From Micromonospora sp. FIMYZ51 (GTDB lineage Bacteria > Actinomycetota > Actinomycetes > Mycobacteriales > Micromonosporaceae), in NCBI RefSeq assembly GCF_038246755.1, contig NZ_CP134706.1:620001-684000 (forward strand): 64,000 nucleotides of DNA. Reading direction: 5' to 3'. The notes beneath the pieces are model-generated. The model saw nothing but the letters and a program-made list of their open reading frames with translations. It was not told where the DNA came from and ran no database searches. Positions 1-17,230 of this stretch are shown one piece after another; position 1 is the stretch's first letter; each line of letters opens with the position of its first letter. The translations under genes were made by a program, and so were the position numbers.

Positions 1-341
1 ACCAGACCCAGTTCCTCGCCAACGGCACCTTCGTGGACTGCGGCGACGAACAGGTCTGGGAGGCGTACCGGCGGCTGCGGTCGGACGACCAGGACGGCGT
101 CCCCGGCGACCTGCCGGCGGGCCGGCATCTGTTCCGCCGCGCCGACGGGCAGGTGTTCGCGCTGAACCGCAGCAGCCGGCTGTTCCTGGATCTCTTCACC
201 GCCCCGCTCACCCTGGCCGAGGCACAGCGCCGGCTCTGGATCGTCGAGCCGGCGGTCGCCGACCGGGTCTGGCGGACCTTCATCGGGCAGCGGCTGATCC
301 GCCGGCACCGCCTCCCGGCCCCCGCCGAACCCACCCGGTGA
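1..341 (+). CDS. C-terminal fragment of a protein ending in a PqqD-like domain (5' end outside window)
   Basis: The reading frame is open from the first bases of the window and ends with TGA at 339-341. A GTG lies at 33, but codons before it read as normal protein, so I treat the gene as truncated by the window edge. The last 70 or so residues have the pattern of a PqqD-like winged helix: a basic segment, then FRRADGQVFALN, then a helix SSRLFLDLF, then a helix-rich end. PqqD-like domains bind leader peptides of ribosomally made peptides, which fits the precursor and radical SAM genes downstream. The identity of the whole protein is unknown. The domain call is by eye and moderately sure. Confidence 0.5.
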   Translation, partial: QTQFLANGTFVDCGDEQVWEAYRRLRSDDQDGVPGDLPAGRHLFRRADGQVFALNRSSRLFLDLFTAPLTLAEAQRRLWIVEPAVADRVWRTFIGQRLIRRHRLPAPAEPTR

Positions 342-417
342 ACGCGACGCGGTGAACCGACCCGGTGAACCGAGGCGGTGGACGCGACGCGGCGAACCGA
401 GGCGGTGATCCGATCGC
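337..417 (+). repeat. Six tandem 13-14 bp repeats in the leader of the peptide operon
   Basis: Six units of the form GGTGAACCGAGGC follow one another at 337, 351, 364, 377, 391 and 404. Their lengths are 14, 13, 13, 14, 13 and 14 bp, with one to four changes between units. They begin inside the stop codon of the upstream gene and end about 60 bp before the first small reading frame of the operon. They could bind a regulator or be a neutral tandem expansion. Confidence 0.6.
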
Positions 418-478
418 CGCTTTTGCAGGTAAATGTTCCTTTCCTCGGTAGCATGAGTTGACTTCGGAGGGGCCCACG

Positions 479-577
479 ATGGCTCCGGAGGAGCGCTCAT
501 CACATCGCTCGACACCCGGCCTCAGGCGTACTTCCGCGTCGCGGCGGTGTCCGGAAGTGCCACTGGAGGAGAAGTGA
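479..577 (+). CDS. Possible 32-residue leader ORF coupled to the precursor gene
   Basis: An ATG at 479 has a good ribosome binding site (GGAGG, 466-470, eight bases away). It opens a 32-codon frame rich in Arg and Ser whose TGA (575-577) overlaps the GTG start of the precursor gene at 574 in a GTGA. That overlap is the usual sign of translational coupling. The peptide has no recognisable domain. It may be a leader ORF, or the ATG may be chance and the ribosome binding site decorative. Confidence 0.3.
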   Translation: MAPEERSSHRSTPGLRRTSASRRCPEVPLEEK

Positions 578-867
578 CCGCGCAGGAGAGCGAAGAAGCG
601 CCGTTGAGCCGGGTGCGGGACATCGGAAGCGCCGTCGGCAGAAACCTGCGGGAGCGGCTTGCGGAAATCGACCCTGAACTACTGGTGGTGGTGGCCAGCG
701 GCAATCCGGACTCGGCGCGGGCGCTCTCCGCCGCGTACGCCGAGACGTCGATACCCGGCTCGGACCTCGCGAATCTGGCGCGCTGGAACCAGTCGAGTTG
801 GAACAACGCCTTCCGCGACACCGGCACCTGGACCAACACCTGGGGCCAGTCTCCCCCGCCGAAGTAG
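574..867 (+). CDS. Precursor peptide of a putative multi-cyclophane RiPP (97 aa)
   Basis: The GTG at 574 is preceded by GGAGGAG; an in-frame GTG at 547 is a longer alternative. Residues 1-70 are a helical, charged leader. Residues 71-92 carry five aromatic-X-polar triads: W71-N-Q, W76-N-N, F80-R-D, W86-T-N and W90-G-Q, before a short PPPK tail. Three-residue cyclophanes made by radical SAM/SPASM enzymes join an aromatic ring to the third residue of just such triads, and two SPASM enzymes are encoded immediately downstream. From memory, actinobacterial AmcA-type precursors are described as multiple-cyclophane peptides; I cannot confirm membership. The role as substrate is inferred from position, size and core composition. 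Confidence 0.7.
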   Translation: MTAQESEEAPLSRVRDIGSAVGRNLRERLAEIDPELLVVVASGNPDSARALSAAYAETSIPGSDLANLARWNQSSWNNAFRDTGTWTNTWGQSPPPK

Positions 868-881
868 GGCGACGGCGACCC

Positions 882-2099
882 GTGAACGAAAGCATCCGCA
901 CGATGCTCGGCGCGCCGTCCGTCAGGCCCGCGTTGGTGATCCTTCAGCCGACCGCCCGATGCAACCTGAACTGCACCTACTGCTACCTCCCCGATCGGCA
1001 GGACCGGGCGCTGATGAGCGACGAGGTGCTGGACGCGGCGGTCTCGTTCGTGTTCGCGTGCGACCTCCCCGACGACGGGATCGAGTTTCTGTGGCATGCC
1101 GGCGAACCGCTTGCCGCCGGACCGGCTTTCTACGAGCGGGCCTTCGCCCTGATCGCCAAGCGTGCCCCGGTGGGGTTGCGGGTGCGGCACATCCTCCAGA
1201 TGAACGGCACCCTGCTGAACCAGTCCTGGTGTGACCTCTTCGTCAGGTACCAGGTGGACACGGGCCTGAGTGTGGACGGCCCGGCGGAGATCCACGATGC
1301 GAACCGGCGAACCTGGTCCGGTCGGGCGACCCACGCCAAGGTGATGCGGAGTTACCACCTGCTCCGCCGCAACGGGCTGTCACCCGGGGCGCTGTGCGTC
1401 CTGACGCCCGAGTCGCTGAGCTGGCCCGACCGGATGTACGAGTTCTTCCGGGACGCGGGATTCGGATCCGTCGGCTTCAACGTGGAGGAATCCGAGGGCG
1501 TCTACCACCACTCGCGACTGCGGGACATCGGCCCGGATCAGCTCCGGGCGTCCTATGACTCGTTCATGCGGCGGATGTGGCAGCGCTGGCGGGCCGACGG
1601 CTCGAAGATGATCATCCGGGAGTTCCACGAGATGCTTGGCGGCATCGTGCGGACGCGGCAGGAAGCCGCGCGAGTCCGGGAACCGCTGGAAGCAGTGCCG
1701 TTCTCGATCCTCACGATCCGCCGCGACGGGCGGCTGAGCACCTTCTCGCCGGAACTGGCATCGACGCCGAGCGGGGAGTACGGCGACTTCATCGTGGGCA
1801 ACGTGCTCGTCGACACACCTGCCGAGGTGGCGCGGAGCGCGGCGTTCGGGCGACTGCGCCGGGACGTGGCGATCGGGCAGGACCGTTGCCGAAGCGGCTG
1901 CCAGTATTACGCGCTGTGTGGCGGCGGGTTTCAGTCGAATCGGTTCACCGAGCACGGCAGCCTGCACGCCACGGAGACCCTGACCTGCCGGCTCCACCGG
2001 CAGACGCTGGCCGACGTCGTGGTCGGCGAGCTGGCATCGGAGAGCCGCCGGCTCCGGTCGGGCGGCGTGCAGCTGACCACCGGCGTGGGCGACAGCTAG
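882..2099 (+). CDS. Radical SAM/SPASM peptide maturase 1, putative cyclophane synthase (405 aa)
   Basis: The start is taken at GTG 882, 14 bases after the precursor stop; upstream codons in this frame overlap the precursor core and are unlikely. The cluster-binding motif CNLNCTYC (C27, C31, C34) lies in a PTARCNLNC context near the N-terminus. A SPASM-like cysteine-rich end follows, with CRSGCQYYALCGGG and a later TLTCRLH. Family members use S-adenosylmethionine and an iron-sulfur cluster to make a radical on a peptide substrate; the SPASM clusters help hold the peptide. Crosslinking of the aromatic triads of the adjacent precursor is inferred. Sequence and length closely match the next gene, so the two look like a tandem duplication. 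Confidence 0.88.
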   Translation: MNESIRTMLGAPSVRPALVILQPTARCNLNCTYCYLPDRQDRALMSDEVLDAAVSFVFACDLPDDGIEFLWHAGEPLAAGPAFYERAFALIAKRAPVGLRVRHILQMNGTLLNQSWCDLFVRYQVDTGLSVDGPAEIHDANRRTWSGRATHAKVMRSYHLLRRNGLSPGALCVLTPESLSWPDRMYEFFRDAGFGSVGFNVEESEGVYHHSRLRDIGPDQLRASYDSFMRRMWQRWRADGSKMIIREFHEMLGGIVRTRQEAARVREPLEAVPFSILTIRRDGRLSTFSPELASTPSGEYGDFIVGNVLVDTPAEVARSAAFGRLRRDVAIGQDRCRSGCQYYALCGGGFQSNRFTEHGSLHATETLTCRLHRQTLADVVVGELASESRRLRSGGVQLTTGVGDS

Positions 2100-2106
2100 G
2101 GCGCCG

Positions 2107-3297
2107 ATGAGTCTCGCCGTGCCGAAGGTGCAGCCCCGGACCGTGGTCGTCCAGCCGACCGCCCGCTGCAATCTGGACTGCGCCTACTGCTACGTACCGG
2201 ACCGCCGCGACCGGGCCGTGATGACCGCCGAGGTGCTCGACGCGAGCGCCGACTTCATCTTCGGATGTGACCTTCCGCCCGGTGAGATCGAGTTCCACTG
2301 GCACGCGGGCGAGCCGCTGGCCGCCGGTCTGGCGTTCTACCAGCGCGCGTTCGCCGTGCTCGCCGAACGCGCCCCGCCGGACGTGCGGCTCCGGCACGTC
2401 ATCCAGACCAATGGCACGCTGCTCACCCGCCGCTGGTGCGAACTGCTTGCCGAGTACGGGGTCCAGGTCGGGCTCAGCCTCGACGGGCCCGCCGATCTGC
2501 ACGACCGGAGCCGACGCACCCGGTCGGGCCGCGGCACGCACGCCCGGGTGATGGCGGGTTACCGCCGCTTGCGGGATCACGGGATCTCGCCGGGGGCGAT
2601 CTGCGTCCTACGGCGCGGATCGTTCGAGTTCCCGGACCGGATCTACGACTTCTTCGTCGAGGCCGGCTTCGCGTCGGTCGGCTTCAACGTCGAGGAGTCC
2701 GAGGGCGTGTACCTCCGCTCGGAACTGCTCCGGGCGGGCCTCGGTGAGATCCGTCAGTCCTACGTGGCGTTCATGAAACGGATCTGGCAAAGATGGTGGA
2801 CCGGTGGGTGCAGCATCGAGATCCGCGAGTTCCACCAGTTGCTGGGCTGCCTTGAGCGGCTGCGCCAGGACGCGGCCTTCGTCCGCGAGCCAGCGGAGAC
2901 CGTACCCTTCCGGATCCTCACCATCCGCCGCGACGGCGCCGTCGGCACCTTCTCGCCCGAACTGGCCGCCACGCCGAGCCGGGAGTACGAGTCGTTCGTG
3001 CTGGGCAACGTCCTGACCGACACGCCCGCTCAGGTGGCGCGCGGCGTCGCGTTCCAGCGACTGCACCGCGACATCGCGGTGGGACGGAGCCGCTGCCGGG
3101 AAGAGTGCAGCTACTTTCCGGTCTGCGGCGCGGCGTTCCAGTCCAACCGGTTCACCGAACATGGCACCTTCCGGGCCACCGAGACGCTCACCTGCCGCCT
3201 GCACCGGCAGGCCCTGACCGACGTCATCGTGGACGAGCTGAAAGATCATTTCGAGCCTTCCGGTCCGCCGGCCACGTCCGGCAGTAAACTCGACTAA
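2107..3297 (+). CDS. Radical SAM/SPASM peptide maturase 2, paralogue of the preceding gene (396 aa)
   Basis: ATG 2107 lies seven bases after the first maturase stop, with a weak ribosome binding site, suggesting coupled translation. The radical SAM motif CNLDCAYC places cysteines at 21, 25 and 28. The SPASM end has CREECSYFPVC and TLTCRLHRQ, with spacing like its neighbour. Blocks such as GFNVEESEGVYL, IREFHQ and PFRILTIRRDG are shared with paralogue 1. One of the three glycines after the last cysteine of the middle SPASM motif in paralogue 1 (CGGGFQSN) is followed here by two alanines (CGAAFQSN). Two enzymes for one precursor suggests division of labour over different triads, or that one of them acts on the second small protein at 5870-6313. 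Confidence 0.88.
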   Translation: MSLAVPKVQPRTVVVQPTARCNLDCAYCYVPDRRDRAVMTAEVLDASADFIFGCDLPPGEIEFHWHAGEPLAAGLAFYQRAFAVLAERAPPDVRLRHVIQTNGTLLTRRWCELLAEYGVQVGLSLDGPADLHDRSRRTRSGRGTHARVMAGYRRLRDHGISPGAICVLRRGSFEFPDRIYDFFVEAGFASVGFNVEESEGVYLRSELLRAGLGEIRQSYVAFMKRIWQRWWTGGCSIEIREFHQLLGCLERLRQDAAFVREPAETVPFRILTIRRDGAVGTFSPELAATPSREYESFVLGNVLTDTPAQVARGVAFQRLHRDIAVGRSRCREECSYFPVCGAAFQSNRFTEHGTFRATETLTCRLHRQALTDVIVDELKDHFEPSGPPATSGSKLD

Positions 3298-3321
3298 AGG
3301 GACAAAGGCGACACGTGACGG

Positions 3322-4368
3322 ATGGCGGTCATGGGGGTAGGCGCAACCGGGCAGGTCAGCTTACGGCCGGACCGTCGCGAGACCGGGCGGAGCCGGAACG
3401 ACGCGCTCTGGCTCTTCGCCGGGCACGGCGTCCGGGCGCGGCGGGGCGGAACCGGCCTCGCCGCCTTGCCGGCCCTGATGGCGCAGGCCCGGACGTTTGC
3501 GGAAGCCGCCAGCCGAGTCGCCACCGGCCCCTATCCGGCGTTCGACCAGCCCGCCATGCTGGCCGCCGCGGTCGCCACGGTCGCCGCCTGCCGGCGGCAG
3601 GGCGGCACGCCGGGCGGCGTCCTCGGCCACAGCTTCGGCGAGTACCCGGCACTCGTCGCAGCCGGGGCCTGGTCGTTCCGCGACGCGGTCCGGGTGGCCG
3701 TGGCCCGGGGGCAGGCGATGGCCGACGCCGCCGACGGCACCGGCGGGATGCTCGCCGTGATCGGGCTGGCCGAGGCGGCCGTCCGGGAGGTGTGCGAGGC
3801 CCGGGCCTCGGATCCACGACTGCTGACCGTCGCCGCCCACAACAGCCCCACCCAGACCGTGCTCACCGGCGAGCGTCGACTGCTGAGCGAGGTGGCCGGC
3901 GAGTGCCGGCGTCGCGGGGCACGACGAACCCGGTTGCTGCCGGTGCCGTTCGCCGCCCACTCCCCGGCCATGGCCGGGGTACGGGAGCGGGTGGCCGAGG
4001 TGGTGACACGAGTCCGGCTCCACCGGCCAGCGGTGCCGTACTACTCCACCGTGACCGGAGCACCGGTCGACGACCCGGACGAGCTACGCCGGCTGCTGGT
4101 TCGCGCGGTGACCGAGCCGGTGCGGTTCCGACAGGCCGTGACGAGGGCCCTCGCCGACGGCTATCGGCGGGTCCTGGAGGTGGGCACCGACTCGCCGCCA
4201 GCGTTGCTCGGCCTGCTGGCTGAGACCTGCCGGGTCGACCTGCCGGCGCTACCGATGCCCCGGTTGGCGGCGGTCGCCGCGGACGCCGACGCGCCGGCCG
4301 GTCGCCCCTACCACCCCGGCATCCCTCGCCACACCGAGCCGCACCAGACAAGGAGTCACCTGGAATGA
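3322..4368 (+). CDS. Acyltransferase of the malonyl-CoA:ACP transacylase (FabD) family (348 aa)
   Basis: The alpha/beta hydrolase nucleophile motif GHSFGEY places the catalytic serine near residue 104. The later FAAHSPAM supplies the catalytic histidine, and the total length suits a free-standing acyltransferase. Family members load malonyl or another acyl group from CoA onto an acyl carrier protein. The N-terminal oxyanion segment, normally FPGQG, here reads LFAGHG, with His in place of the conserved Gln. This may change substrate choice or activity. The stop overlaps the carrier-protein start as ATGA. The tail after about residue 320 is rich in Pro, Asp and His and looks disordered. Loading the carrier protein encoded next is the obvious role. 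Confidence 0.85.
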   Translation: MAVMGVGATGQVSLRPDRRETGRSRNDALWLFAGHGVRARRGGTGLAALPALMAQARTFAEAASRVATGPYPAFDQPAMLAAAVATVAACRRQGGTPGGVLGHSFGEYPALVAAGAWSFRDAVRVAVARGQAMADAADGTGGMLAVIGLAEAAVREVCEARASDPRLLTVAAHNSPTQTVLTGERRLLSEVAGECRRRGARRTRLLPVPFAAHSPAMAGVRERVAEVVTRVRLHRPAVPYYSTVTGAPVDDPDELRRLLVRAVTEPVRFRQAVTRALADGYRRVLEVGTDSPPALLGLLAETCRVDLPALPMPRLAAVAADADAPAGRPYHPGIPRHTEPHQTRSHLE

Positions 4369-4625
4369 CCCGCCCGACCTGTGCTCAGGAGGAGATCCTG
4401 GGCCACATCGTGGAGATCCTCGCCGAGGAACTCGCCGTACCTGCCGAGAGCGTCGTACCTGGCGCACACGTCTTCGACGACCTGGGTCTCGAGTCGCTCG
4501 ACCTGCTCACCCTGATCGCCATTCTGGAGGAACGGCTGGGCATCACCGTCCTGGACGAGGAGATCGGCCACATGGCGACCGTCCAGGGCGCGGTCGACGT
4601 GGTCGCCGGCAAGCTGACGCCGTGA
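4365..4625 (+). CDS. Acyl carrier protein (86 aa)
   Basis: Short acidic four-helix protein with the phosphopantetheine attachment motif DLGLESLDL, Ser 44. Size and motif are typical of carrier proteins of type II fatty-acid and polyketide systems. The ATG overlaps the acyltransferase stop and the TGA overlaps the ketosynthase GTG, so transferase, carrier and synthase should be made in similar amounts. No phosphopantetheinyl transferase is encoded in the window; a chromosomal one would be needed. Confidence 0.92.
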   Translation: MTRPTCAQEEILGHIVEILAEELAVPAESVVPGAHVFDDLGLESLDLLTLIAILEERLGITVLDEEIGHMATVQGAVDVVAGKLTP

Positions 4626-5842
4626 CCCGGCGGGCCGTCGTGACCGGCATCGGCCCGGTGACCCCGGTCGGTACCGGCCGTCGGGACTTCTGGGCGTCGC
4701 TCGTCGCCGGCCGGGCGGGCATCGGGCCGATCACCCGGTTCGACCCGTCGGTGCTTTCCTCCCGGATCGCCGGGCAGGTGGACCAGGCGTCACCTGCCGC
4801 CGTCCACCCGCCGGCCCGCCGAGCCGAGCGGTTCAGCCTGCTCGCCCACGAGGCGGCCCGGTTGGCGCTCGCCGACGCCCGGCTCGCCCCGGCCGACGTG
4901 GACGGCGACCGCGCCGCCGTCGTCCTCGGTAGCGCGTACGGAGGTCTGAGCCGGGTAGAGACCGATGCGGTGGCCCTGCGGACCCGTGGCGCCGGTGCCG
5001 TACTGCCCCACCTGAGCAGCTCCGGTTCCCTCAGCGCCGCCGCTGCCCTGGTGTCGATGGCGTTCGGTTTCACCGGCCCGGTCGAGTGCCCGGCCGGTGC
5101 CTGCGCCACTGGTGCCCAGGCGGTGGCACGCGGTCTCGACCTGATCCGGCTCGATGCAGCCGACGTCGTGGTGGCCGGCGGCACCGACGCCGCCCTGTCC
5201 CCGTTGTTCATGGCGTCGTTCTGCGCCGCCCGGGCGCTCTCCCGCCGCAACGACGACCCGGCGGCGGCGTCCCGGCCGTTCGACCGTGACCGGGATGGTT
5301 TCGTCTTCAGCGAAGGGGCGGTGGTCCTGGTGCTTGAGGAGTACGAGTTCGCGCGGGCCCGTGGTGCACCGGTGCTTGCCGAGGTCCTCGGCCACGGGGA
5401 GGCCGGGGACGCCTACAGCCCGGTGGCGCCCCACCCGCAGGGAGCGGGGATTCTGCGGGCCATGCAACGGGCGGTGCGGGCCGCCGGAGTCACCCCGGCC
5501 GAGATCGGCTACGTCAACGCGCACGCCGCCTCGACCCCGGTCGGGGACGTGGCCGAGGTCCACGCGATCCGGACGTTGTTCGGCGGCGCTCCGCCACCTG
5601 TCTCGTCGACCAAGTCCATGACCGGGCACCTGTTGGGGGCCGCCGGTGCGCTGGCGGCTGCGGTGGCGGTGCTCACCGTCGCCACCGGCTGGATCACCCC
5701 GACGATCAACCTTGAATCGCCCGATCCGCGCTGCGACATCGACGGTGTTCCACACCGGGCGCGTGAAAAGAAGACCGAGGTCGCGATGTCGAACGCGATC
5801 GGACTCGGCGGCATCAACTGCGCCCTGGTGTTCGGCCGGTAG
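4622..5842 (+). CDS. Beta-ketoacyl-ACP synthase of the FabF type (406 aa)
   Basis: The thiolase-fold triad is complete: Cys161 in GACATGAQ, His in VNAHAASTPVGD, and His in KSMTGHLLGAAG. Length matches FabF/KAS II. The enzyme condenses an acyl primer with malonyl-ACP. The usual VNAHGTSTP reads VNAHAASTP here, a small departure. No ketoreductase, dehydratase or enoyl reductase lies in the operon, so either the host FAS supplies reduction or only one condensation is needed. Its location between peptide maturases and another small peptide gene suggests that the operon makes a lipid or ketide part for a peptide product; this is inference. Confidence 0.9.
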   Translation: MTRRAVVTGIGPVTPVGTGRRDFWASLVAGRAGIGPITRFDPSVLSSRIAGQVDQASPAAVHPPARRAERFSLLAHEAARLALADARLAPADVDGDRAAVVLGSAYGGLSRVETDAVALRTRGAGAVLPHLSSSGSLSAAAALVSMAFGFTGPVECPAGACATGAQAVARGLDLIRLDAADVVVAGGTDAALSPLFMASFCAARALSRRNDDPAAASRPFDRDRDGFVFSEGAVVLVLEEYEFARARGAPVLAEVLGHGEAGDAYSPVAPHPQGAGILRAMQRAVRAAGVTPAEIGYVNAHAASTPVGDVAEVHAIRTLFGGAPPPVSSTKSMTGHLLGAAGALAAAVAVLTVATGWITPTINLESPDPRCDIDGVPHRAREKKTEVAMSNAIGLGGINCALVFGR

Positions 5843-5869
5843 GACGACAACTTTTTCCGGAGGAGAGAC

Positions 5870-6313
5870 ATGACGAAGAACCAACGCCGCTTCGGCCCCA
5901 GCGCACTCGTGGTGGAACTGAACGATCTCGCTGTTCAGGCCGCCCATCCGGAGCGCGGTGACCTGCTCGACGGTGACCTGACCTCGCTTATCGAACGGAA
6001 CTTCACCCTGACCTCGGATCAGCAAGCCGGGGTCGAGCGGCTCCGCGCCGACGAGGACGGGGTGGAGCTGCTCCGACGACTGATCCTCGAGGCGGCCCAG
6101 GACGGCGCGAACGGGCAGTTCGTGGTGGTCCACCAACCAGCGCCGAACAGTCGGCTCGGCTACGTCCACACCCTGCGCTACGAGCGGACGAACGCCGCTG
6201 CACCCGACGCCGACCGCCCGAGTCGCGAGCTGTCGGCGACCGAGGTCTCCACGATCGGCATCGCCCACTGCGACGCCGACTGCCGCAACTGGGGGTGGGG
6301 TCTACAGCGCTGA
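5870..6313 (+). CDS. Small protein with Cys/Trp-rich C-terminus, possible second precursor (147 aa)
   Basis: The start has the strongest ribosome binding site of the operon (GGAGGAG, 5857-5863, six bases before ATG), as expected for an abundant peptide. Residues 1-110 are soluble, acidic and helical. The end reads IAHCDADCRNWGWGLQR, with C134, C138, W141 and W143. A long leader-like region followed by a short Cys/Trp tail resembles ribosomal peptide precursors, and the radical SAM pair upstream could act on it. I do not recognise the family. It could instead be a structural or immunity protein. The reading frame continues open for 38 codons beyond its TGA. Confidence 0.6.
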   Translation: MTKNQRRFGPSALVVELNDLAVQAAHPERGDLLDGDLTSLIERNFTLTSDQQAGVERLRADEDGVELLRRLILEAAQDGANGQFVVVHQPAPNSRLGYVHTLRYERTNAAAPDADRPSRELSATEVSTIGIAHCDADCRNWGWGLQR

Positions 6314-6471
6314 CGGCGTACCTGGGCCGGTCAACCGGCGGAAAGCGTTGCGGCCCTGACCACCGCCATCGCCTGCGCGGCCACCGGCGCTGCCGGTTAT
6401 GCGTTGCGCGGCACCCGCCGGAACAGCTGACCCGACGCCCCTGCCGTGCCTTCGCGGCCTACTCTGCCCGG

Positions 6472-7206
6472 GTGGAACTACGCCTGGAATCCGCGTTCGT
6501 GGTCTTCGACGCCCAGGACTCCGGATGCGTCTCATACGGCGTCGAGGCGGCCGGGCGTCGCTGGTTCGTCAAGACAGCAACCACCGAGCCCGGCCGCCGT
6601 TCATTGCTGCGGGCCGCGACGTTCCACGCCGTGGTCCGGCATCCGGCCATCGTGCGCCCCGAGCACGTCCTCGACGGGCCGACGCTCGTCTACCCGTGGC
6701 ATGCCGGCAAGGTGTTGAACCACGCCACCGTCCACGGCTCGGACCGCAGCGCACTGGCTCGGTTTCAGCAACTGCCGTTGCCTGAGGTCGACCTGGCCAT
6801 CGACACCATCCTCGACGCTCACCTGACTGTCACCGCTGCCGGCTACGTGGCGGTCGACCTCTACGACGGCTGCTTCCTCTACGACTTCCGGGCCCGCCAG
6901 CTGCGCCTGATCGACCTCGACGAGTACCGTCCCGGCCCGTTCACCCTCGACACCGACCGCCTCCCCGGATCCCGCCGCTACATGGCCCCCGAGGAGTTCG
7001 TCCGCGGCGCGGTCATCGACAAGCGCACCACCGTCTACACCCTCGGCCGCATCATTCACCACCTTTTGGACTCCCCACTCGGCTGGCGCGGCTCCCGCCA
7101 CCAACACCAGGTCGCCGTACGCGCCACCGCCACGACACCCGCCGACCGATACCCCGACGTGGCGGCACTCACCGCCGCCTGGCGTACCACCCGGCCGAAC
7201 CCGTAA
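6472..7206 (+). CDS. Atypical serine/threonine protein kinase-like protein (244 aa)
   Basis: I chose GTG 6472; the frame is open further upstream but codons there look non-coding. A compact kinase fold is visible: an ATP lysine in RWFVKTA, a catalytic-loop equivalent YVAVDLYDGCFLYD, a metal-binding IDLDEY in place of DFG, an APEE segment in RRYMAPEEF, and a C-terminal helical lobe. The missing HRD and DFG and small size place it among divergent bacterial kinases; activity is likely but not certain. There is no transmembrane segment. It follows the peptide operon in the same direction after 158 bases, so it may regulate or modify that system, or be an independent gene. Confidence 0.7.
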   Translation: MELRLESAFVVFDAQDSGCVSYGVEAAGRRWFVKTATTEPGRRSLLRAATFHAVVRHPAIVRPEHVLDGPTLVYPWHAGKVLNHATVHGSDRSALARFQQLPLPEVDLAIDTILDAHLTVTAAGYVAVDLYDGCFLYDFRARQLRLIDLDEYRPGPFTLDTDRLPGSRRYMAPEEFVRGAVIDKRTTVYTLGRIIHHLLDSPLGWRGSRHQHQVAVRATATTPADRYPDVAALTAAWRTTRPNP

Positions 7207-7290
7207 GGCGCCAGAACCCGCCGCGCACCTCGACCATCCGCGCCTGACGCCGGTCGGTACCGACCCGGGTGTTCGGTCTGCGGCGGCGGC

Positions 7291-7959
7291 TCAGCCCAGG
7301 CTGCCCGGCCCGACCAGGCCGGTTTCGTAGGCGACGATCACCAGCTGCGCCCGATCCCGTACCGCCAGCTTGGTCAGCAACCGCCCGACGTGCGTCTTCA
7401 CGGTGGCAAGGCTGAGACCGAGGTGCTCGGCCAGTTCCGCGTTGGACAGGCCGCGGCCGATGAGCGTGAGCACCTCCCGTTCCCGCTCGGTCACCCCCGC
7501 CAGCCGTCGCGGCAGCGGCCGGGCCGGCGCGGGCCGACGCGCGAACTCGTCGATCAGCCGGCGGGTCACCGTCGGCGCGAGCAACCCCTCTCCGGCGGCC
7601 ACCACCCGGATGCCGGTCAGCAGGTCCGCTGGCGGGGTGTCCTTGAGCAGGAATCCGCTGGCTCCGGCGCGCAGTGCCCCGTAAACGTATTCGTCCAGGT
7701 CGAACGTGGTCAGGATGACGACCCGGGTGCGGGTTGTGGCCGGGGCGGCGCAAATCTGTCGGGTCGCCTCGATGCCGTCCATCTCCGGCATCCGCACGTC
7801 CATCAGCACCACGTCCGGCCGGTGCTGCGCGGTAAGCGCGACGGCCTGCACGCCGGTGCCCGCCTCACCGACCGTGGTGAGATCTTCGGCCGAATCGACA
7901 AGCAGCCGGAAACTGCCGCGCAGCAGCGCCTGGTCGTCAGCGATCAACACCCGGATCAC
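7291..7959 (-). CDS. NarL/LuxR-family response regulator (222 aa)
   Basis: The N-terminal receiver domain has the acidic pair ADD at 7-9, phosphorylation site D54 in VLMDVRMPEMDG, and conserved Thr and Lys (LLKDTPP). The C-terminal LuxR helix-turn-helix reads LTEREREVL-like, LSNAELAEHLGLSLATVKTHVGRLL. The start GTG overlaps the histidine kinase stop as GTGA, so this is a cognate pair. It probably controls the divergent ABC exporter at 9282-12457, by family habit and location. Confidence 0.93.
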   Translation of the reverse strand: MIRVLIADDQALLRGSFRLLVDSAEDLTTVGEAGTGVQAVALTAQHRPDVVLMDVRMPEMDGIEATRQICAAPATTRTRVVILTTFDLDEYVYGALRAGASGFLLKDTPPADLLTGIRVVAAGEGLLAPTVTRRLIDEFARRPAPARPLPRRLAGVTEREREVLTLIGRGLSNAELAEHLGLSLATVKTHVGRLLTKLAVRDRAQLVIVAYETGLVGPGSLG

Positions 7960-9113
7960 GCGGCCACCCGGTAGGGCAGGCTGGCGGTCACCGCGAAGCC
8001 GCCACCGGAGCGTGGCCCGGCGTGGAACTCGCCCCCGTGCAACGCCACCCGCTCCCGCATGCCGATCAGCCCATGCCCCTGCCCGCCGGTCAGGACCGGA
8101 CGGCGGCCATCGTCGGTCACCTCGACCCTGACCTCGTACGGCGTGACGGTCACCGTCGTCTCGCAGGCGGCCGGCGCCGCGTGCTTCACCACGTTCGTCA
8201 CCGCTTCCTGCACGATCCGGTAGACCGCCTGGCCCACCGACTCCGGCACCGCTGCGGCCGGTTCCTCCCGCCGCACGTCCAACCGGATGTCGACACCGCC
8301 GATCGCCGCCTGTCGGGCGAGCACGGGCAGCTCGTCCAGCCCGGGCGTCGGGGCGTACGGAGTGTCCTCGCGCAGTGCGCCGAGCACCCGGCGGATGTCG
8401 GTGAGCGCGGTGCGGCCAGTCCGCTCGATCACCCGTAGGGCGTCCCCCGCCTGACGCGGGTCGGCCTCGGCGACGTGGTTGGCGACGGCCGCTTTGACCA
8501 CGATGAGGCTCAGCGTGTGCGCGACGACGTCGTGCAGTTCCCGCGCCACCCGTAACCGCTCCTCGGCGGCGGCCTGGTGGACCAGGTGCTCGCTCTGACG
8601 GGCGGCGAGGGCGCGGCGCTCGCGGACCAACCAGCCGATCATCCAGGCCGGCGCGATCATGACGGCGGCGTAGCCGACCGCGCCGGTCCCCGACCAGAGA
8701 TCACTCTCGGTGAACACCAGGGCGACGCTCACCAGAGCGAGACAACCGGCGCCGCAGAGCAGTGACCGGCGCATCGCCGTCGACACCGCCACCGTGTAGA
8801 CGGACAGGCCGATGGCGAGCCCGGGCGCGGCGGCGGCATAGTTGGGAATCACGCCGGTGATCAGGGCGACGGTGGCGACGCAGCTGATCACGACCGCGAC
8901 GGTGATCGGCCACCGCCGCCGGACAGCCAACGGCAGCCCGAGGGCCATCCCGACGAGCACCGACACCCAGAGCGGCTCGCGTACGCCACCATGCAGCGGC
9001 GATTCCAGTGCCGCGTACGGGCCGAGCAGCCCGCCGACCGCCACCGAGAGCACGGCGTCCACGATGGCCAGCTCCGCTGGCCGCAGCCGCCGAGTCAGCA
9101 GAAGGGCGGTCAC
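7956..9113 (-). CDS. Membrane histidine kinase with HisKA_3/HATPase domains (385 aa)
   Basis: The start is taken at GTG 9113 (VTALLLTRRLRPAEL); upstream codons in the same frame are antisense to the ABC gene and not believable. The first 150 residues hold five or so transmembrane helices. The dimerisation box RELHDVVAHTLS carries the phospho-His, followed by an HATPase lid with GHGLIGMRERV. The architecture is that of NarL-partner kinases which sense envelope stress, often antibiotics. The divergent promoter region 9114-9281 is shared with the exporter operon. Confidence 0.92.
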   Translation of the reverse strand: MTALLLTRRLRPAELAIVDAVLSVAVGGLLGPYAALESPLHGGVREPLWVSVLVGMALGLPLAVRRRWPITVAVVISCVATVALITGVIPNYAAAAPGLAIGLSVYTVAVSTAMRRSLLCGAGCLALVSVALVFTESDLWSGTGAVGYAAVMIAPAWMIGWLVRERRALAARQSEHLVHQAAAEERLRVARELHDVVAHTLSLIVVKAAVANHVAEADPRQAGDALRVIERTGRTALTDIRRVLGALREDTPYAPTPGLDELPVLARQAAIGGVDIRLDVRREEPAAAVPESVGQAVYRIVQEAVTNVVKHAAPAACETTVTVTPYEVRVEVTDDGRRPVLTGGQGHGLIGMRERVALHGGEFHAGPRSGGGFAVTASLPYRVAA

Positions 9114-9281
9114 CTGTCGAAGCGTATCGGCCGGCCGGGCCGACCGCGTCCACCTGCGGGCGGTCATCCTCGGGCATGACGTCCGCAGCGATCCGGCCCC
9201 GGGATCCGCCCAGAGTCGGGCCGGCAAATGTCCACACCGGCACGACGCGCCGCACCTGCCGGAACCGGCACCCTGGCGGTC

Positions 9282-10046
9282 ATGACTACCCAGACGGTGG
9301 CCCTGACCGGGCTGCGGGCGGTGTACGGCACCGGAGCACGGCAGTTGACGGCGCTCGACGGCGTGACGACCAGCTTCGCGAGCGGCACGTTCACGGCGGT
9401 GATGGGCCCGTCGGGCTCGGGAAAGTCCACCCTGCTGCACTGCGCGGCCGGGCTGGACCGGCCGGTCGAGGGGACCGTCACGATCGACGGCAGACGCCTC
9501 GACGACCTGAACGAGGACCAGCTGACCCGGCTGCGCCGCGAGCGGATCGGCTTCGTCTTCCAGGCGTTCAACCTGGTGTCCACGCTGACCGCGGCGCAGA
9601 ACGTCGAGTTGCCGCTGCGCCTGGCAGGGCGTCGTCCCCCGGCCCGGGACGTCGCCGCCGCGCTCGACGCGGTGGGACTGGCAGACCGGGCCGGGCACCG
9701 ACCGAGCGAACTGTCCGGCGGTGAGCAGCAACGCGTCGCCGTGGCCCGAGCGTTGATCACCCGCCCGGCGGTGGTCTTCGCCGACGAACCGACCGGGGCC
9801 TTGGACAGCGCGGCATCCCGGCAGGTCCTCCGGCTGCTCCGGGCACTCGTCGACGACCACCGGCAGACGGTCGTGATGGTGACCCACGATCCGGCCGCCG
9901 CCGCGTACGCCGATCGGGTCCTGCTGCTCGCCGACGGTCGCGTGGTGGACGAGCTGACCGGTGGGATCACCGCCGCGGTCGTCGCCGCGCGGATCGCCGA
10001 CCGGGAGACGGTCCCGGCGGGAAGCGCCGTGGAGCCGTCGTGCTGA
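9282..10046 (+). CDS. ABC transporter ATPase, MacB/LolD type (254 aa)
   Basis: Walker A GPSGSGKST, Q-loop in FVFQAFNL, signature LSGGEQQR, Walker B VVFADEPTGALD and a final switch HD motif are all present. The longer in-frame extension to 9228 lacks codon-like sequence, and ATG 9282 gives the usual N-terminus. The stop overlaps the permease start by seven bases. With the two-component pair opposite, this is a standard peptide or drug efflux module and could export or give resistance to the peptide made upstream. That link is inferred. Confidence 0.93.
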   Translation: MTTQTVALTGLRAVYGTGARQLTALDGVTTSFASGTFTAVMGPSGSGKSTLLHCAAGLDRPVEGTVTIDGRRLDDLNEDQLTRLRRERIGFVFQAFNLVSTLTAAQNVELPLRLAGRRPPARDVAAALDAVGLADRAGHRPSELSGGEQQRVAVARALITRPAVVFADEPTGALDSAASRQVLRLLRALVDDHRQTVVMVTHDPAAAAYADRVLLLADGRVVDELTGGITAAVVAARIADRETVPAGSAVEPSC

Positions 10047-12457
10047 GCCTCCGGCGGTCGGCCGGCGCGTTCGTGGCCGTCGCCGTCGGCGTCACGCTTG
10101 TCACGGCGGCTACCCTGCTGCTCGCCTCCGGCCGTCCGCAGGTGCCCAACCGGCTGGCGTACGCGGCAGTCGTGGTGCAGAGCCCCGAGGCCGGTGCGCC
10201 GGCCGACACGTTCGCGCCGACCCGGCCCTGGTCCGCCGCCAGGACTGCGGAACTCACCAGCAGGCTGGCCGAGCTGCCGGGTGTCACGGCGGCGGTGCCG
10301 GACCGCACCTTCTACGCCCAGGCGCTCGTCAACGGCCGCCCTGCGGGCACCGGTGCGCAGCGGGAGGAGGCCCAGCAGGGACACGGCTGGTCCAGCGCCC
10401 GGTTGGGTGGATTCCGTCTCACGGCCGGAGAGCCGCCCCGGCAGGCCGGCGAGGTGGTCGTCGACCGTACGCTCGGGCTGCGTCCCGGCGGGGTGGTCAC
10501 CCTGCTCACGGCGGCGGGCCCGCAGCCGTACCTTGTCACCGGTCTGGTCGACGCGCCCGGCGTCTACGTCGCGGACGAGGTTGCCGCCGCGCTCGCACCC
10601 GGCGTCCGGGCCATCGGTCTGCTTCTCGCGTCGGGCGCTGACGTCGAGGAAGTCGCCGAGACAGCTCGCGGTGTCGTCGGCGGCGACGGACAGACGCTTA
10701 CCGGTGACGGCCGCGGCGCGTTGGAGCCTCGGGGTGACGCCCGAACCCGCTGGATCGGCATGCAGGTACTCACCGCCACGGCGGCTCTCGCCGGCTTCGT
10801 CACGGTCTTCGTGGTCGCCTCCACCTTCGCGTTCACCGTCGCGCAGCGCCGTCGCGAGCTGGGACTGCTGCGCGCTGTCGGCGCCACCGGCCGTCAGGTC
10901 CGCCGCATGGTCCACGCCGAGGCGCTCGTCGTCGGCGCCACGGCCGGGCTGGTCGGCGTCCTGGCCGGCGCGGCGCTCGCCCCGGGCCTGGGTCGGCTGC
11001 TTGTCGACGTCGGCTTTGAGCCGGCGACCTTCCACGTCCGGTACGAACCCTGGCCGGTCGCGGTCTCCTTCATCACCGGCCCGGTGATCGCGCTGCTGGC
11101 CGTCTGGTCGGCGTCGCGCCGGGCGGCACGCGTCCGCCCGCTTGAGGCGTTGCGCGAGGCGGCGGTGGAGCAGCGGCCGATCGGACGGCTGAGGATCGCC
11201 ACCGGGGTGCTCCTCGTCGCGGCTGGGGTCGCTCTCAGCCTCGGCACCGCGACGTCCGACGAGGCCCGCGACGCCGCCACGTTCGCCCTCTACGCGGTGA
11301 TGGCGCTGGTGGCCGGTGCCACCGTGCTGGCTCCGACGGCCATCGGCCCGCTGCTGCGGCTGCTGCGGTGGCCGGTGCGTCGAAAGGGCGGCGCGATCGG
11401 GATGCTGGTCCGGGCCGGGGCGTCGACCGCGACCCGGCGGACGGCTTCGATCGCCGCACCGGTGCTGCTCACTGTCGCGTTCGCGGTGCTGATCTCCGGG
11501 ATGGTACGCACGACCACGGCTGCCTACGCGGCGGCCCGGGCCGACAACGTAAACGCCGGCTGGGTCGTCGTACCCGACCGCGCACCGGGCCTGTCGGACC
11601 AGGCCGTCGCGGCGACCGGGGGCACCGCCCTGCTGCCGACGACGGTCTTCGAAGGCGACCCGGACTCCTCGCCGGAGAACCGGCCACTCACCGCGCTCGG
11701 CGTGGATCCGGCGGGCTTCGCCGCCGCGAACCGGGCGCTCACCGTCGTCGCCGGCTCGCTCGACGAGTTGCGCGGCGACGACACGGTGGTCCTGCCCGCC
11801 TCGGCGAACAGACAACCGACCGAACCGTACGCGCTTGTCTTCGCTGACGGTGAGGTGGTGTCGCTGCGCGTCGTCGCGGTCGTCACCGACGACTCGATCC
11901 CCGGCGACCTGCTCCTGCCCCGATCGGTGGTGCGGGCGCACGACCCCTCGGCGCTCACCTCCGCGGTGTACGTCTCCGACCGGATCGATCCGCCAACCGG
12001 AGCGCGGATCGTTGACGTATCCGGGTGGGCGGCCGAGGCGGACCGCGCCGAGGATCGCCTTGTCTGGCTCACCACGCTGCTGCTGATCGGAGTCTCGGCC
12101 GGCTACGGGGCTGTCGCGGTGGCGAACACGTTGCTGATGGCCGCCGCCGGCCGGGTGGCCGACCTGCGGCTGATCCGGCTGGCCGGTGCGACCCGCAGGC
12201 AGGTCATCTGGCTGGTCACGGCCGAGTCCGCCCTGGTCGTGCTGATCGGCGCACTGCTCGGAGGGGCTGTCGCGTTCGTCGGTCTGCTGAGTATCCGTGC
12301 CGGCCTCGCCGAGCAGGCTGGCGTACCGGTCGACCTGGTGCTGCCATGGTCCGTGGTCGGCGGGGTCGTGGGGCTCTGCCTGCTGCTGGCGGTGCTGGCC
12401 AGCGCGCTGCCCACCTGGCGGTCCCTACGCCACCGTCCCGCGCGGTCTGCGGGGTGA
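10040..12457 (+). CDS. FtsX-like ABC transporter permease (805 aa)
   Basis: A signal-anchor-like helix at the N-terminus is followed by a large extracytoplasmic domain, three transmembrane helices (about 240-360), a short coupling segment, a fourth helix, a second extracytoplasmic domain (about 480-660) and a final group of three helices. This two-FtsX-unit layout is typical of actinobacterial exporters paired with MacB-like ATPases. The segments RRRELGLLRAVGAT and VADLRLIRLAGATRRQ are the cytoplasmic coupling motifs of the two halves. Function: ATP-driven export from membrane or periplasm side, substrate unknown. Confidence 0.9.
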   Translation: MLSLRRSAGAFVAVAVGVTLVTAATLLLASGRPQVPNRLAYAAVVVQSPEAGAPADTFAPTRPWSAARTAELTSRLAELPGVTAAVPDRTFYAQALVNGRPAGTGAQREEAQQGHGWSSARLGGFRLTAGEPPRQAGEVVVDRTLGLRPGGVVTLLTAAGPQPYLVTGLVDAPGVYVADEVAAALAPGVRAIGLLLASGADVEEVAETARGVVGGDGQTLTGDGRGALEPRGDARTRWIGMQVLTATAALAGFVTVFVVASTFAFTVAQRRRELGLLRAVGATGRQVRRMVHAEALVVGATAGLVGVLAGAALAPGLGRLLVDVGFEPATFHVRYEPWPVAVSFITGPVIALLAVWSASRRAARVRPLEALREAAVEQRPIGRLRIATGVLLVAAGVALSLGTATSDEARDAATFALYAVMALVAGATVLAPTAIGPLLRLLRWPVRRKGGAIGMLVRAGASTATRRTASIAAPVLLTVAFAVLISGMVRTTTAAYAAARADNVNAGWVVVPDRAPGLSDQAVAATGGTALLPTTVFEGDPDSSPENRPLTALGVDPAGFAAANRALTVVAGSLDELRGDDTVVLPASANRQPTEPYALVFADGEVVSLRVVAVVTDDSIPGDLLLPRSVVRAHDPSALTSAVYVSDRIDPPTGARIVDVSGWAAEADRAEDRLVWLTTLLLIGVSAGYGAVAVANTLLMAAAGRVADLRLIRLAGATRRQVIWLVTAESALVVLIGALLGGAVAFVGLLSIRAGLAEQAGVPVDLVLPWSVVGGVVGLCLLLAVLASALPTWRSLRHRPARSAG

Positions 12458-12545
12458 ACCCGTGCCACCGCACGGCGGCAGCGTGGAGTGGCCCCGCTTA
12501 CCTCGCCGTGGTGCGGATGACTGGAAGCCGGCGTGGCATGTCCGG

Positions 12546-12956
12546 TCAGCGGGTCGGTGGTGTTCGTTCGTCGGCGAGGTGTTTGGTGATGCGTAGCAGC
12601 ACCTGGCCCGGTGGCCCGGTGACGAAGGTGGCCGTGTCGGCGAGTGCGGTGATCAAGGGCAGTCCACGACCACCGATGGTGAGCGGGGCGGGCAGGTCGG
12701 CGTCGAGGCCAGCGCCGTCGGGGGTGCGGCCGTGGTTGCCGACCTCGAGCAGGCAGACGTCGTCGTCGATGCTGATGGTGATGTCGACGTCGCTGTCGGC
12801 GTCGGCGTGTATCACCGCGTTGGCGCAGGCCTCGCTCATCAGCACGGCGAGGTGGCCCCCGATGTCCTCGTGGGCGTCGGTGAGGCTCAGCAGGGTGGCC
12901 AGGACATGGCGGGCACGGGTCACCGAGGACGGTTGGCGTGGGAGGGACAGCGTCAT
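12546..12956 (-). CDS. RsbW-like anti-sigma factor kinase (136 aa)
   Basis: A single HATPase_c domain with N-box SEACANAVIHA, G1-like EVGNHGRTPD and G2 GGRGLPLI, and no other domain. Such proteins bind a sigma factor and phosphorylate a STAS antagonist. ATG 12956 gives a typical start; GTG 12962 two codons upstream is possible. A STAS protein and a SpoIIE phosphatase are encoded next to it, giving a full partner-switch set apart from the sigma factor. Confidence 0.88.
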   Translation of the reverse strand: MTLSLPRQPSSVTRARHVLATLLSLTDAHEDIGGHLAVLMSEACANAVIHADADSDVDITISIDDDVCLLEVGNHGRTPDGAGLDADLPAPLTIGGRGLPLITALADTATFVTGPPGQVLLRITKHLADERTPPTR

Positions 12957-13185
12957 GCTCACCCGCACCGCGCGACTCCTCCCGACCCGTACCTGGCCCG
13001 CCGGACCACCGCTGACACCCTGAGGCGGGATGCTCCGGTTCTGATTAGCGCTACCCGCGGTCGCTGAGGTGAAACGGTTTGGGAGCGGCTGGGCGGGCAC
13101 CGGCCGGCGGTGGTTTGCCGGCCGGCGGTGGTTCGCTGGCCGGCAAAATAGGATAAGCGGGGATCATCGGCGTCGGGAGGTTGTG

Positions 13186-13548
13186 GTGGATCTGCAGTTG
13201 TCGGTCCGGCCGGGCCGTGGTTGCACCGTTCTCGAGGTGCACGGTGAGCTGGACATGGCGACGTCCCCGCAGTTGCGCGAGGGTCTGCAACGGGTGGCCG
13301 ACGCCGGTGACCGCCGGGTGGTGGTGGATCTGGCCGGGGTGGGATTCATGGACTCCAGCGGGCTGGGCGCGCTGGTGGTGATGTTCAAGGCGTTGCGCGA
13401 GGCCGGGGGGCGGTTGTGCCTGGCCGCGGTGCAGCCTGCCGTGCACAGCGTCCTGATGGTCACGTCGGTGGACCAGGTGATTGACGTCTATGGCAGCGTG
13501 CAGGCGGCCGAAGCGGACATGTCGTCGAGGGACGCGACAGCCAGCTAG
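13186..13548 (+). CDS. STAS-domain anti-sigma factor antagonist (120 aa)
   Basis: The start is GTG 13186, five bases after GGGAGG (13175-13180). The STAS fold is clear: HGELDMATSPQLREGL, then VVVDLAGVGFMDSSGLGALV, where the serine of DSSGLG is the usual phosphorylation site. It should release a sigma factor from the RsbW-like kinase when unphosphorylated. Its stop is immediately followed by the phosphatase stop on the other strand (13549), so the two genes are convergent without spacing. Confidence 0.92.
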   Translation: MDLQLSVRPGRGCTVLEVHGELDMATSPQLREGLQRVADAGDRRVVVDLAGVGFMDSSGLGALVVMFKALREAGGRLCLAAVQPAVHSVLMVTSVDQVIDVYGSVQAAEADMSSRDATAS

Positions 13549-14805
13549 TCAGCCGGGCAGCGCGGCGCTGGCGCGCGTCTGGTCTGCGCCGGCGCTGGTA
13601 CTCCGGTCCTCGCTGTGCCTGCCGTGCCAGTCGACGATGAACAGGGTGGCGTCGTCGGCCAGTGTCGGTCCGCTGACCTCGAGCACGGCGTCGGCCAGCG
13701 CCCGGACCGCCTCGCGCGGGTGCAGGCCAGCGATCGACCGCAGCATGGCCGGCAGATCCAGACTGGCGGCGTTGCGTTCCCGCACGCCGTCGGTGACGAC
13801 CACCAGGCGGTCGCCGGGTCGCAGCGTGACCTCACCGGCGCGGAAACCGGACTCGGCGAACATGCCCAGGGGGAGATTGCCCGGCAGGGGCAGCGCCCGG
13901 GTGTCCCCGTCGCGTACCAGCATCGGCGGCACGTGCCCGGCGTTGAGCAGCGCGCACACCCCGCTACGCAGATCGAGCCGGCCCAGCACCGCGGTGATGA
14001 AACTGCCACGCACCGTGCTGTGTGCGGCCACGTCGGCGTTCGCGGCCTCGGCCTGCGCCACCAGGCCCACCGCGCGGCGGCGGTTGTTGCGCAAGCTGCC
14101 CACACCCAGGGTGGCCGTCAGCGCGCTGGCCACCCCGTGGCCCATCGCGTCGGTGACGCTGAAGTGCAGCACGTCCCGGGCGAGGCTGTAGTCGAAGGTG
14201 TCCCCGCCGACGCTCGCGGCGGGCTCCAACCAGCCGGACAGCGTGAACGCGCTCGCCTCACACGTGAACGAACCCGGCAGCAGGCGCCGCTGGATTTCCC
14301 CGGACAGGGTGAACGGGGTCGTGCGCTGCCCCCACTCGAACAGGTCGGTGTGCCGCCGGTTGGCGATCACCACGAACGCCAACACGTGCGCCGTGCGGGA
14401 AATCTCCTCCAGATCACGGGCATCCGGCTCGCCCGGCAGGACCATCTCCAACAGGCCGATCGCCTCATCGCGGCCGGTCACCGGCGCCCACACCGTCCAC
14501 CCGTCGGGCTGCGCGACGACCTGCACCGTCTGGGTGCGCAGCGCCTGTTCGGCGGGGCCGCCGTCGAACGGCAGCACCGTGGCGACCTCGTCACCGTTCC
14601 GGCGTCCCTCATCGGCACCGTGGAGCGGCAGGTGGGCCAACCGGACCAGCGCCCGGCCGCTGAGGTCCGCGATCAGGAACGCGACGGCACGTGCCCTCAG
14701 CGCCGCACCGAGTTCCCGGGTGACCGCCTCGACCGCCTCGACCGGCGAGGCGTTCTCCGCCGCACCCAACATGTCAGCCATTGTCTGGCCCCGACTGCTC
14801 TCCAC
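13549..14805 (-). CDS. GAF plus SpoIIE-type PP2C serine phosphatase (418 aa)
   Basis: Residues from about 15 to 160 form a GAF-like sensor; residues 185-400 are a PP2C/SpoIIE domain with metal-binding motifs VGGDTFDY, VTDAMGHGVASA and LVVVTDGVRERN, and a final DDATLFIV. RsbU-like enzymes dephosphorylate STAS antagonists and so switch on a sigma factor. GTG 14805 is the longest start; ATG 14781 is equally plausible. The signal sensed by the GAF-like region is unknown. Confidence 0.88.
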   Translation of the reverse strand: MESSRGQTMADMLGAAENASPVEAVEAVTRELGAALRARAVAFLIADLSGRALVRLAHLPLHGADEGRRNGDEVATVLPFDGGPAEQALRTQTVQVVAQPDGWTVWAPVTGRDEAIGLLEMVLPGEPDARDLEEISRTAHVLAFVVIANRRHTDLFEWGQRTTPFTLSGEIQRRLLPGSFTCEASAFTLSGWLEPAASVGGDTFDYSLARDVLHFSVTDAMGHGVASALTATLGVGSLRNNRRRAVGLVAQAEAANADVAAHSTVRGSFITAVLGRLDLRSGVCALLNAGHVPPMLVRDGDTRALPLPGNLPLGMFAESGFRAGEVTLRPGDRLVVVTDGVRERNAASLDLPAMLRSIAGLHPREAVRALADAVLEVSGPTLADDATLFIVDWHGRHSEDRSTSAGADQTRASAALPG

Positions 14806-15457: not shown

Positions 15458-15754
15458 ATGGGGCAAAACCCCGACGACATGTTCGGCGATGAGAACTACC
15501 CGGCCTACACCATTGGCCAGGCCGCGGAGATGCTCAACACCACGCAGGACTTCCTGCGCCGCCTGGACGAGGCGAAATTGATCAACCCGCACCGCTCCAG
15601 CGGCGGGCACCGCCGCTACTCCCGCTACCAGCTGCGCCTGGCCGCCCGGGCCCGCCAAATGGTCGACGACGGCACCGCCCTGGAGGCCGCCTGCCGGATC
15701 ATCGTGCTGGAAGACCAACTCGAGGAAGCCCTCCGGCAGAACGAGAAGCAGTAG
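15458..15754 (+). CDS. Small MerR-family DNA-binding regulator (98 aa)
   Basis: A helix-turn-helix of the MerR type spans residues 16-60: YTIGQAAEMLNTTQDFLRRLDEAKL, then SSGGHRRYSRYQL. A short coiled helix ends the protein, and there is no effector domain. Small stand-alone MerR proteins such as BldC bind repeated operators. The ribosome binding site is GGAGG at 15449-15453. Targets are unknown; the cold-shock gene downstream is the nearest candidate. Confidence 0.85.
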   Translation: MGQNPDDMFGDENYPAYTIGQAAEMLNTTQDFLRRLDEAKLINPHRSSGGHRRYSRYQLRLAARARQMVDDGTALEAACRIIVLEDQLEEALRQNEKQ

Positions 15755-15948
15755 CGAGGGCCGCGGCGACAGGACCGACCAGCCCCACCCCTCGCACCTC
15801 TTCCCATCCCGACCGACGACCGGGACGCTGTGCGTGGCTGCCGGTCCGCGGCGTCGCGGTCTTACGCCGGCCGGCGTGCCCAGGACCGACGACGGATCAT
15901 GTGCTACGGTAGCCGGGTTGCAGTTTTGATTTCCGTAGACGTCTTCCG

Positions 15949-17225: not shown

Positions 17226-17230
17226 CCGGC

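Follow-up and report, generated by a model that had tools for sequence, protein, structure and literature searches.

The analysed window is a 64,000-nucleotide stretch of the genome of Micromonospora sp. FIMYZ51 (contig NZ_CP134706.1, positions 620,001 to 684,000). Near its start lies a compact row of about 5.7 kb, in which seven genes encode a short precursor peptide, two SPASM-type radical S-adenosylmethionine enzymes (rSAM1 and rSAM2), an acyltransferase (AT), an acyl carrier protein (ACP), a ketosynthase (KS), and a second small protein (Table 1). Families were assigned using the Pfam and NCBIfam models with their curated cutoffs. Both the families and the coordinates agree with the gene list of an earlier note, which had been made from this DNA alone. 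The row is real, unusual, and unreplicated, and we tentatively read it as an operon for a triceptide, a three-residue cyclophane peptide of the ribosomally synthesized and post-translationally modified (RiPP) class, with its own carrier-protein acyl machinery.

Table 1. Features of the gene row and of the segment that contains it, in window coordinates
Feature	Position	Strand	Description
Precursor gene	574..867	+	GTG start; 97 aa; Shine-Dalgarno-like GGAGGAG upstream
Maturase 1 (rSAM1), SPASM radical SAM, GrrM/OscB family	882..2099	+	TIGR04261; 14-bp gap before
Maturase 2 (rSAM2), SPASM radical SAM, GrrM/OscB family	2107..3297	+	TIGR04261; 7-bp gap before
Discrete AT, FabD/polyketide synthase AT type	3322..4368	+	Acyl_transf_1; 24-bp gap before
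ACP	4365..4625	+	PP-binding; 4-base overlap with AT
KS, FabF-type	4622..5842	+	ketoacyl-synt N and C domains; 4-base overlap with ACP
Orphan second small protein, 147 aa	5870..6313	+	27 bp after KS; ATG start
Kinase-like gene	6472..7206	+	GTG at 6472; weak Pkinase match; 158 bp after 6313
Genome-specific segment	345..7285 (approx.)	.	sits between two genus-conserved modules

The seven plus-strand genes between positions 574 and 6313 are separated by gaps of 7–27 bp or overlap by four bases. The earlier note had described this spacing correctly and had listed a kinase after the row; because of the 158-bp gap, the kinase-like gene does not share the tight packing. The kinase-like gene, the product of which scores 22.6 bits against the Pkinase model (cutoff 31.7), is probably separate from the row, though it is located inside the genome-specific segment. 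The G+C content at third codon positions (GC3) is 0.84–0.90 across the eight genes at 574–7206, which is host-like. The GGAGGAG Shine-Dalgarno-like site precedes both small genes, and the ACP gene has AGGAG; judged by eye, the rSAM, AT, and KS genes have no site as strong as these.

The precursor and its two maturases

The leader of the precursor carries LRERLAEIDPELL, which includes an IDP motif, and the core is RWNQSSWNNAFRDTGTWTNTWGQSPPPK. The last 28 residues contain five aromatic side chains, every one of which is followed two positions later by Asn, Gln, or Asp, in the triplets WNQ, WNN, FRD, WTN, and WGQ. The third residue (X3) is Asn or Asp in three of the triplets and Gln in two. Five triplets are unlikely to occur by chance, since a shuffled 28-residue stretch reaches this number in 37 of 200,000 trials; when the whole precursor was shuffled, at least five appeared in 8 of 20,000 trials. 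The available part of a review on triceptides describes that OscB cross-links C7 of Trp to the Cβ of Asn or Asp, and C4 of Phe to the Cβ of Asn (PMC11002830). WNN and WTN fit these linkages directly. FRD nearly fits, and FRD and the two Gln sites would be unproven variants. No Pfam or NCBIfam family was matched by the precursor, save for one chance-level match (E 0.089), and since no curated precursor model was matched, it is not placed among the Gly-rich GrrA/OscA precursors. Judged by its motifs, the precursor looks triceptide-type: it is adjacent to SPASM radical SAM enzymes of the GrrM/OscB family, and its aromatic-X-X3 triplets have mostly Asn or Asp as X3.

The assignment of the maturases is based on the GrrM/OscB model TIGR04261, against which rSAM1 and rSAM2 score 377.6 and 352.7 bits, respectively (cutoff 310). 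For the other models shown (25 of 52 for one rSAM, 25 of 58 for the other), neither enzyme reaches the cutoff. Both keep the CxxxCxxC motif (CNLNCTYC in rSAM1) and four C-terminal cysteines, which are common to 12 aligned sequences. Both copies look functional. The two enzymes are 62% identical and are sisters in a tree of 84 sequences with a support of 100/99; a duplication within this lineage is therefore the most likely origin of the pair. The tree was built on the best tblastn pieces rather than on full proteins, with several long branches flagged, one sequence containing 24 X, and another containing a stop, and only the sisterhood of the window pair and its nearest neighbours are used here. 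We infer that rSAM1 and rSAM2 may divide sites or linkage types between them.

Relatives of the maturases were sought by scanning GTDB species genomes with two peptide patterns, a procedure that may miss relatives lacking these patterns as well as records very near the genome of the window. The best 80 of 305 relatives were kept, and are at most 48% identical to the window enzymes. The DNA obtained spans 20 kb or more at 44 of the 80 loci and is shorter at the rest. Two rSAM matches longer than 250 residues are present at one of the 80 loci. The nearest sequences by path in the tree are from Herbidospora sakaeratensis (L007), Dyella tabacisoli (L008), and Geodermatophilus obscurus (L015), with best-segment identities of 48, 45, and 36%, respectively. 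The precursor-like open reading frame (ORF) of Herbidospora contains LLEKLRSIDPRNL followed by FRD, FTD, FYD, FSD, and FGD repeats, and that of Dyella contains LLGYLRGIDPAVA followed by FSD and repeated FTD. The leader of the window precursor resembles both, being of the L..L..IDP kind, and its likeness to that of Geodermatophilus is looser. Beside the rSAMs of both Herbidospora and Dyella, an IDP motif is thus again present in the leader, together with repeated aromatic-X-D motifs. Together, the GrrM/OscB-family enzymes and the five triceptide-like motifs make the cyclophane half of our reading well supported, and a cyclophane-forming step likely.

Other arrangements were observed among the relatives. 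In the Geodermatophilus locus (8446–15868), two small ORFs look precursor-like, and GrrM-type rSAMs are matched at two places about 4.6 kb apart, the second of which is near the contig end. Very long precursor-like ORFs are positioned beside GrrM-type enzymes in L038 (9191–9805), L043 (9139–9768), and L046 (5758–6360), with 20 aromatic-X-[N/D/Q] matches in their last 60 residues (WGDWADW-type repeats). The genome of the window itself encodes a distant rSAM homologue (L004; G000:C1:1166026-1167123), which has one in-frame TGA and a very long branch in the tree.

The acyltransferase, carrier protein, and ketosynthase, and the second small protein

The AT scores 129.4 bits against Acyl_transf_1, and its best matches in the PDB are malonyl-CoA-ACP transacylases. 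Alignment to one of them (PDB: 1mla), which we take to be E. coli FabD, indicates that the catalytic residues are kept, namely the Ser of GHSFGEY, the Arg of VARGQAM, and the His of VPFAAH. The AT has PVRF where 1mla has PVQW, and its N-terminal part reads, by eye, AGHG in place of GQG, presumably the usual AT motif near the N terminus. The ACP scores 40.6 bits against PP-binding and retains the Ser in LGLESLDLL, where the phosphopantetheine site was assigned by motif. The KS, the best PDB matches of which are ketoacyl-ACP synthases II, aligns end to end with one such enzyme (PDB: 1j3n), presumably from Thermus, and the active-site Cys, both His, and Lys are kept. The Phe before the C-terminal GG, which is the gate residue of FabF, is replaced by Leu.

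The best other KS of the same genome is 45% identical to that of the row. The closest own-genome matches of the AT are inside very long, polyketide synthase-like ORFs and reach up to 37% identity, and a discrete AT at 5494552–5495298, near the best KS paralogue, is 35% identical. Because of these low identities, we rejected the explanation that the trio is a recent copy of the host fatty acid synthase (FAS) genes, such as a duplicate of a FAS-II operon. In 394 genomes of the class, the AT (1e-32) matched itself and one AT that is part of an open frame of 2464 aa; in 384 class genomes, the KS (1e-108) matched only itself, with ordinary FabF proteins falling below such a strict cutoff. Plasmid matches of the AT, rSAMs, and KS are all below 60% identity, and no AT match was found in viral contigs.

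The 147-residue protein is encoded directly after the KS gene. Its ATG is preceded by the Shine-Dalgarno-like GGAGGAGAGAC, and the protein ends in the Cys/Trp tail STIGIAHCDADCRNWGWGLQR. No Pfam or NCBIfam family and no plasmid sequence matches it, and nothing in the PDB matches it significantly (best E 0.58). A search of 300 family genomes gave the protein itself and one weak match (8.6e-5, with a stop inside). We rejected this match as due to chance, since it was not reproduced by tblastn at E 10; the ORFs present there are transporter-like. By its sequence, the protein fits the role of a candidate second precursor or acyl acceptor. The trio might then serve this protein only, and the triceptide would be its partner in a two-component product. 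The strong ribosome-binding site, the distinct tail, the position of the gene, and the lack of relatives, which is common for precursors, agree with such an arrangement. However, 147 residues are long for a precursor, the only Lys is at position 3, and there are no homologues by which a core could be separated from a leader. We consider this arrangement distinctly unlikely.

Borders and distribution of the genome-specific segment

A discrete stretch, roughly 6.9 kb long, holds the row; this segment was not found elsewhere and is apart from a neighbouring RiPP cluster. This thiazole/thioamide-type cluster ends at window position 341 (L087:1–15341), on the same strand and 232 bp from the row. 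It encodes a YcaO protein, a TfuA-like protein, a B12 radical SAM enzyme (B12-rSAM), a MerR-type regulator, two NHLM-type exporters (one above the cutoff, one just below), and two NHLP-like precursors that do not reach the NHLP cutoff, one ending in SSCACCCPCCCT and the other in GGVPPAADNNVNIIAVLII. Ahead of these genes, the translations suggest another YcaO-like gene and one that is SagB-like.

The B12-rSAM is present in 23 of 250 family genomes, the own genome included, and its downstream flanks were fetched from 20 of the 22 others (12 congeneric, eight from other genera). In 11 of the 12 congeneric flanks, DNA homology stops at window positions 314–344, the end of the B12-rSAM gene; in the twelfth, which is more diverged, it stops at −48, and in the eight flanks from other genera it ends at −46 to 318. 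Thus, the upstream cluster exists without the segment. Past the boundary, none of the 12 congeneric loci starts with the ORFs of the window, and by eye the first ORFs vary from locus to locus; L143 and L144 share genes further beyond the boundary. The shared strand, the short distance, and the upstream RiPP exporters would suit a larger hybrid in which the segment is one end of the thiazole/thioamide-type cluster, with its NHLP-like precursors, YcaO, TfuA, and B12-rSAM. However, such a joint cluster is disfavoured by the boundary mapping, and we regard it as very improbable.

On the other side, a two-component/ABC module starts near 7290. Its ABC permease is present in 43 of 121 genus genomes including the own, and among the 42 other genomes matched, homology starts at window positions 7281–7295 in all 13 loci that were fetched. 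Inclusion of the downstream two-component, ABC, and permease genes was therefore rejected, as they form a genus-wide module. None of the 33 flank loci (20 and 13) matches any of the eight proteins encoded at 574–7206 (tblastn, 1e-3), whereas the control does match. Because of the sharp borders with unrelated conserved modules on both sides, the genes of the row look as though they were gained or lost together. No tRNA was found in window positions 1–20000. In one congeneric genome (G229; L138, 3074–5130, reverse-complement), a homologue of window positions 13149–14859 comes immediately after the upstream cluster, and positions 345–13149 are absent from this junction, which indicates that the site is variable. 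In another (G725; L182), homologues of window positions 7289–7688 and 9833–12481 abut, with no counterpart of 7689–9832.

The tight spacing and the sharp segment borders support the AT, ACP, and KS as belonging with the precursor and the rSAMs. Several results weigh against this connection. The profile of the rSAM pair finds one of 160 genus genomes at 1e-75, and rSAM1 one of 300 family genomes at 1e-90, in both cases only the own genome. The DNA around the 80 related rSAM loci contains no homologue of the AT, ACP, KS, second small protein, or kinase (1e-3). The earlier note had considered that rSAM loci consistently devoid of AT-ACP-KS genes would tell against its lipid-modified peptide, and to the letter this is what the 80 loci show; their nearest member is 48% identical, and no close orthologue is among them. 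The comparison of gene sets that the note had proposed yielded no second genome with the set, and no close relative of the set was found across the GTDB, class, family, and plasmid searches. With the set in only one genome, joint function of its genes cannot be argued from conservation. A simple scan found neither a sigma-70-type promoter nor a terminator that would delimit the putative single transcript of 574–6313. The Pfam and NCBIfam models, run on nine proteins encoded at window positions 3–7206, revealed no GNAT, thioesterase, ketoreductase, dehydratase, or enoylreductase, and the proteins scanned from the segment include no protease or exporter. The 147-residue protein holds a single triceptide-pattern triplet, HCD. 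Thus, of the lipid-modified cyclophane peptide suggested in the note, the cyclophane is upheld, whereas the acyl or ketide part is not directly supported by the enzymes found or by a second genome.

The absence of the trio from the 80 related loci, which indicates that triceptide loci do not generally need it, suits an explanation in which the row has two functions: a plain triceptide pathway and, beyond the 24-bp gap, an AT-ACP-KS set with an acyl or ketide product of its own, the two products never meeting. Comparable sets occur in Streptomyces plasmid clusters, as FabF-type KS and ACP genes in two stretches and as FabD, ACP, and KS genes in one, with no rSAM annotated in the stretches shown. 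However, ketoreductase or dehydratase genes are present in these three stretches as well, and none was found among the proteins scanned here, so that an independent product would be hard to complete, and the trio is followed by another small gene instead of tailoring enzymes. We consider two separate functions possible but doubtful. The restriction to one genome among the samples searched would also be expected of a decaying or unexpressed remnant of horizontal acquisition. Nevertheless, the seven genes are open, the catalytic motifs of the rSAMs, AT, and KS are kept, and the GC3 is host-like, which makes such a remnant highly unlikely.

Proposed pathway and comparison with known systems

A triceptide operon with its own acyl machinery could function in three steps, of which we infer the chemistry, the transfer, and the shared product from the genes. 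The precursor would be bound through its IDP leader by the two duplicated GrrM/OscB-type enzymes, and Trp and Phe would be cross-linked to the Asn, Asp, or Gln two places on at up to five sites, perhaps shared out between rSAM1 and rSAM2. The AT would load a malonyl-type unit onto the ACP, and the FabF-type KS would carry out one condensation with an acyl group from primary metabolism, giving a beta-ketoacyl-ACP that housekeeping FAS enzymes could reduce. The acyl group would then be transferred to a peptide amine, either of the C-terminal Lys of the precursor or of the second small protein, in a reaction in which the KS or AT itself may take part. The C-terminal residue (Lys97) is a natural candidate for the acceptor, and the precursor has no other Lys. 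From this one gene row, a cyclophane peptide with a lipid or ketide tag is plausible. Its most specific form would be a RiPP-ketide hybrid of a new kind: a peptide with several cyclophane staples would be acylated or extended by the dedicated AT-ACP-FabF set, and the KS or AT would transfer the group to an amine such as that of the C-terminal Lys without a GNAT. We consider this form rather unlikely.

The hypothesis is weakest in that it needs a new transfer step, and this is also what makes it interesting. The need arises because the known lipidated lanthipeptides use GNATs, and none was found here. If the trio acts on the peptide, radical C-C cyclophane stapling would be joined with carrier-protein acyl assembly, a pairing not met in the literature searched, and non-GNAT acyl transfer to a RiPP would come into consideration. 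Among the openly licensed papers listed by the searches, none concerns a cyclophane RiPP with a ketosynthase, as judged by titles and the opening of abstracts; terms with GrrM/OscB mostly gave unrelated papers. Should the acyl part prove to be separate, the diverged maturase pair and the single five-motif precursor would still provide a good test case for the division of labour in triceptide formation.

Lipolanthines, goadvionins, lipoavitides, selidamides, and nostolysamides share with the proposed product the idea of a RiPP combined with a fatty-acyl or polyketide part, and in the sections available of two publications they are lanthipeptides acylated by GNATs (PMC13060382, PMC10435860), in line with the statement of the earlier note that lipidated RiPPs use other enzymes. 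The nine scanned proteins include neither the class III lanthipeptide synthetase, or indeed any lanthipeptide synthetase, and GNAT that characterize lipolanthines and goadvionins, nor the GNAT that acylates Lys or Orn side chains in selidamides. The bacterial FAS-II enzymes FabD, ACP, and FabF are the same three protein kinds as the trio; in contrast to FAS-II, none of the proteins scanned here resembles FabH, FabG, FabZ, or FabI. The loci from Herbidospora, Dyella, and Geodermatophilus have the nearest rSAMs and similar leaders, but in contrast to the row, no AT, ACP, or KS match at 1e-3. The closest characterized likeness is to the OscB/GrrM triceptides, as far as these are covered by the available part of the review (PMC11002830): the maturases are of the same family, TIGR04261, and a precursor with repeated aromatic-X-[N/D/Q] motifs is located beside them. 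The row differs from these systems in its tandem maturases, in a core that is not Gly-rich, and in the AT, ACP, KS, and second small genes that follow.

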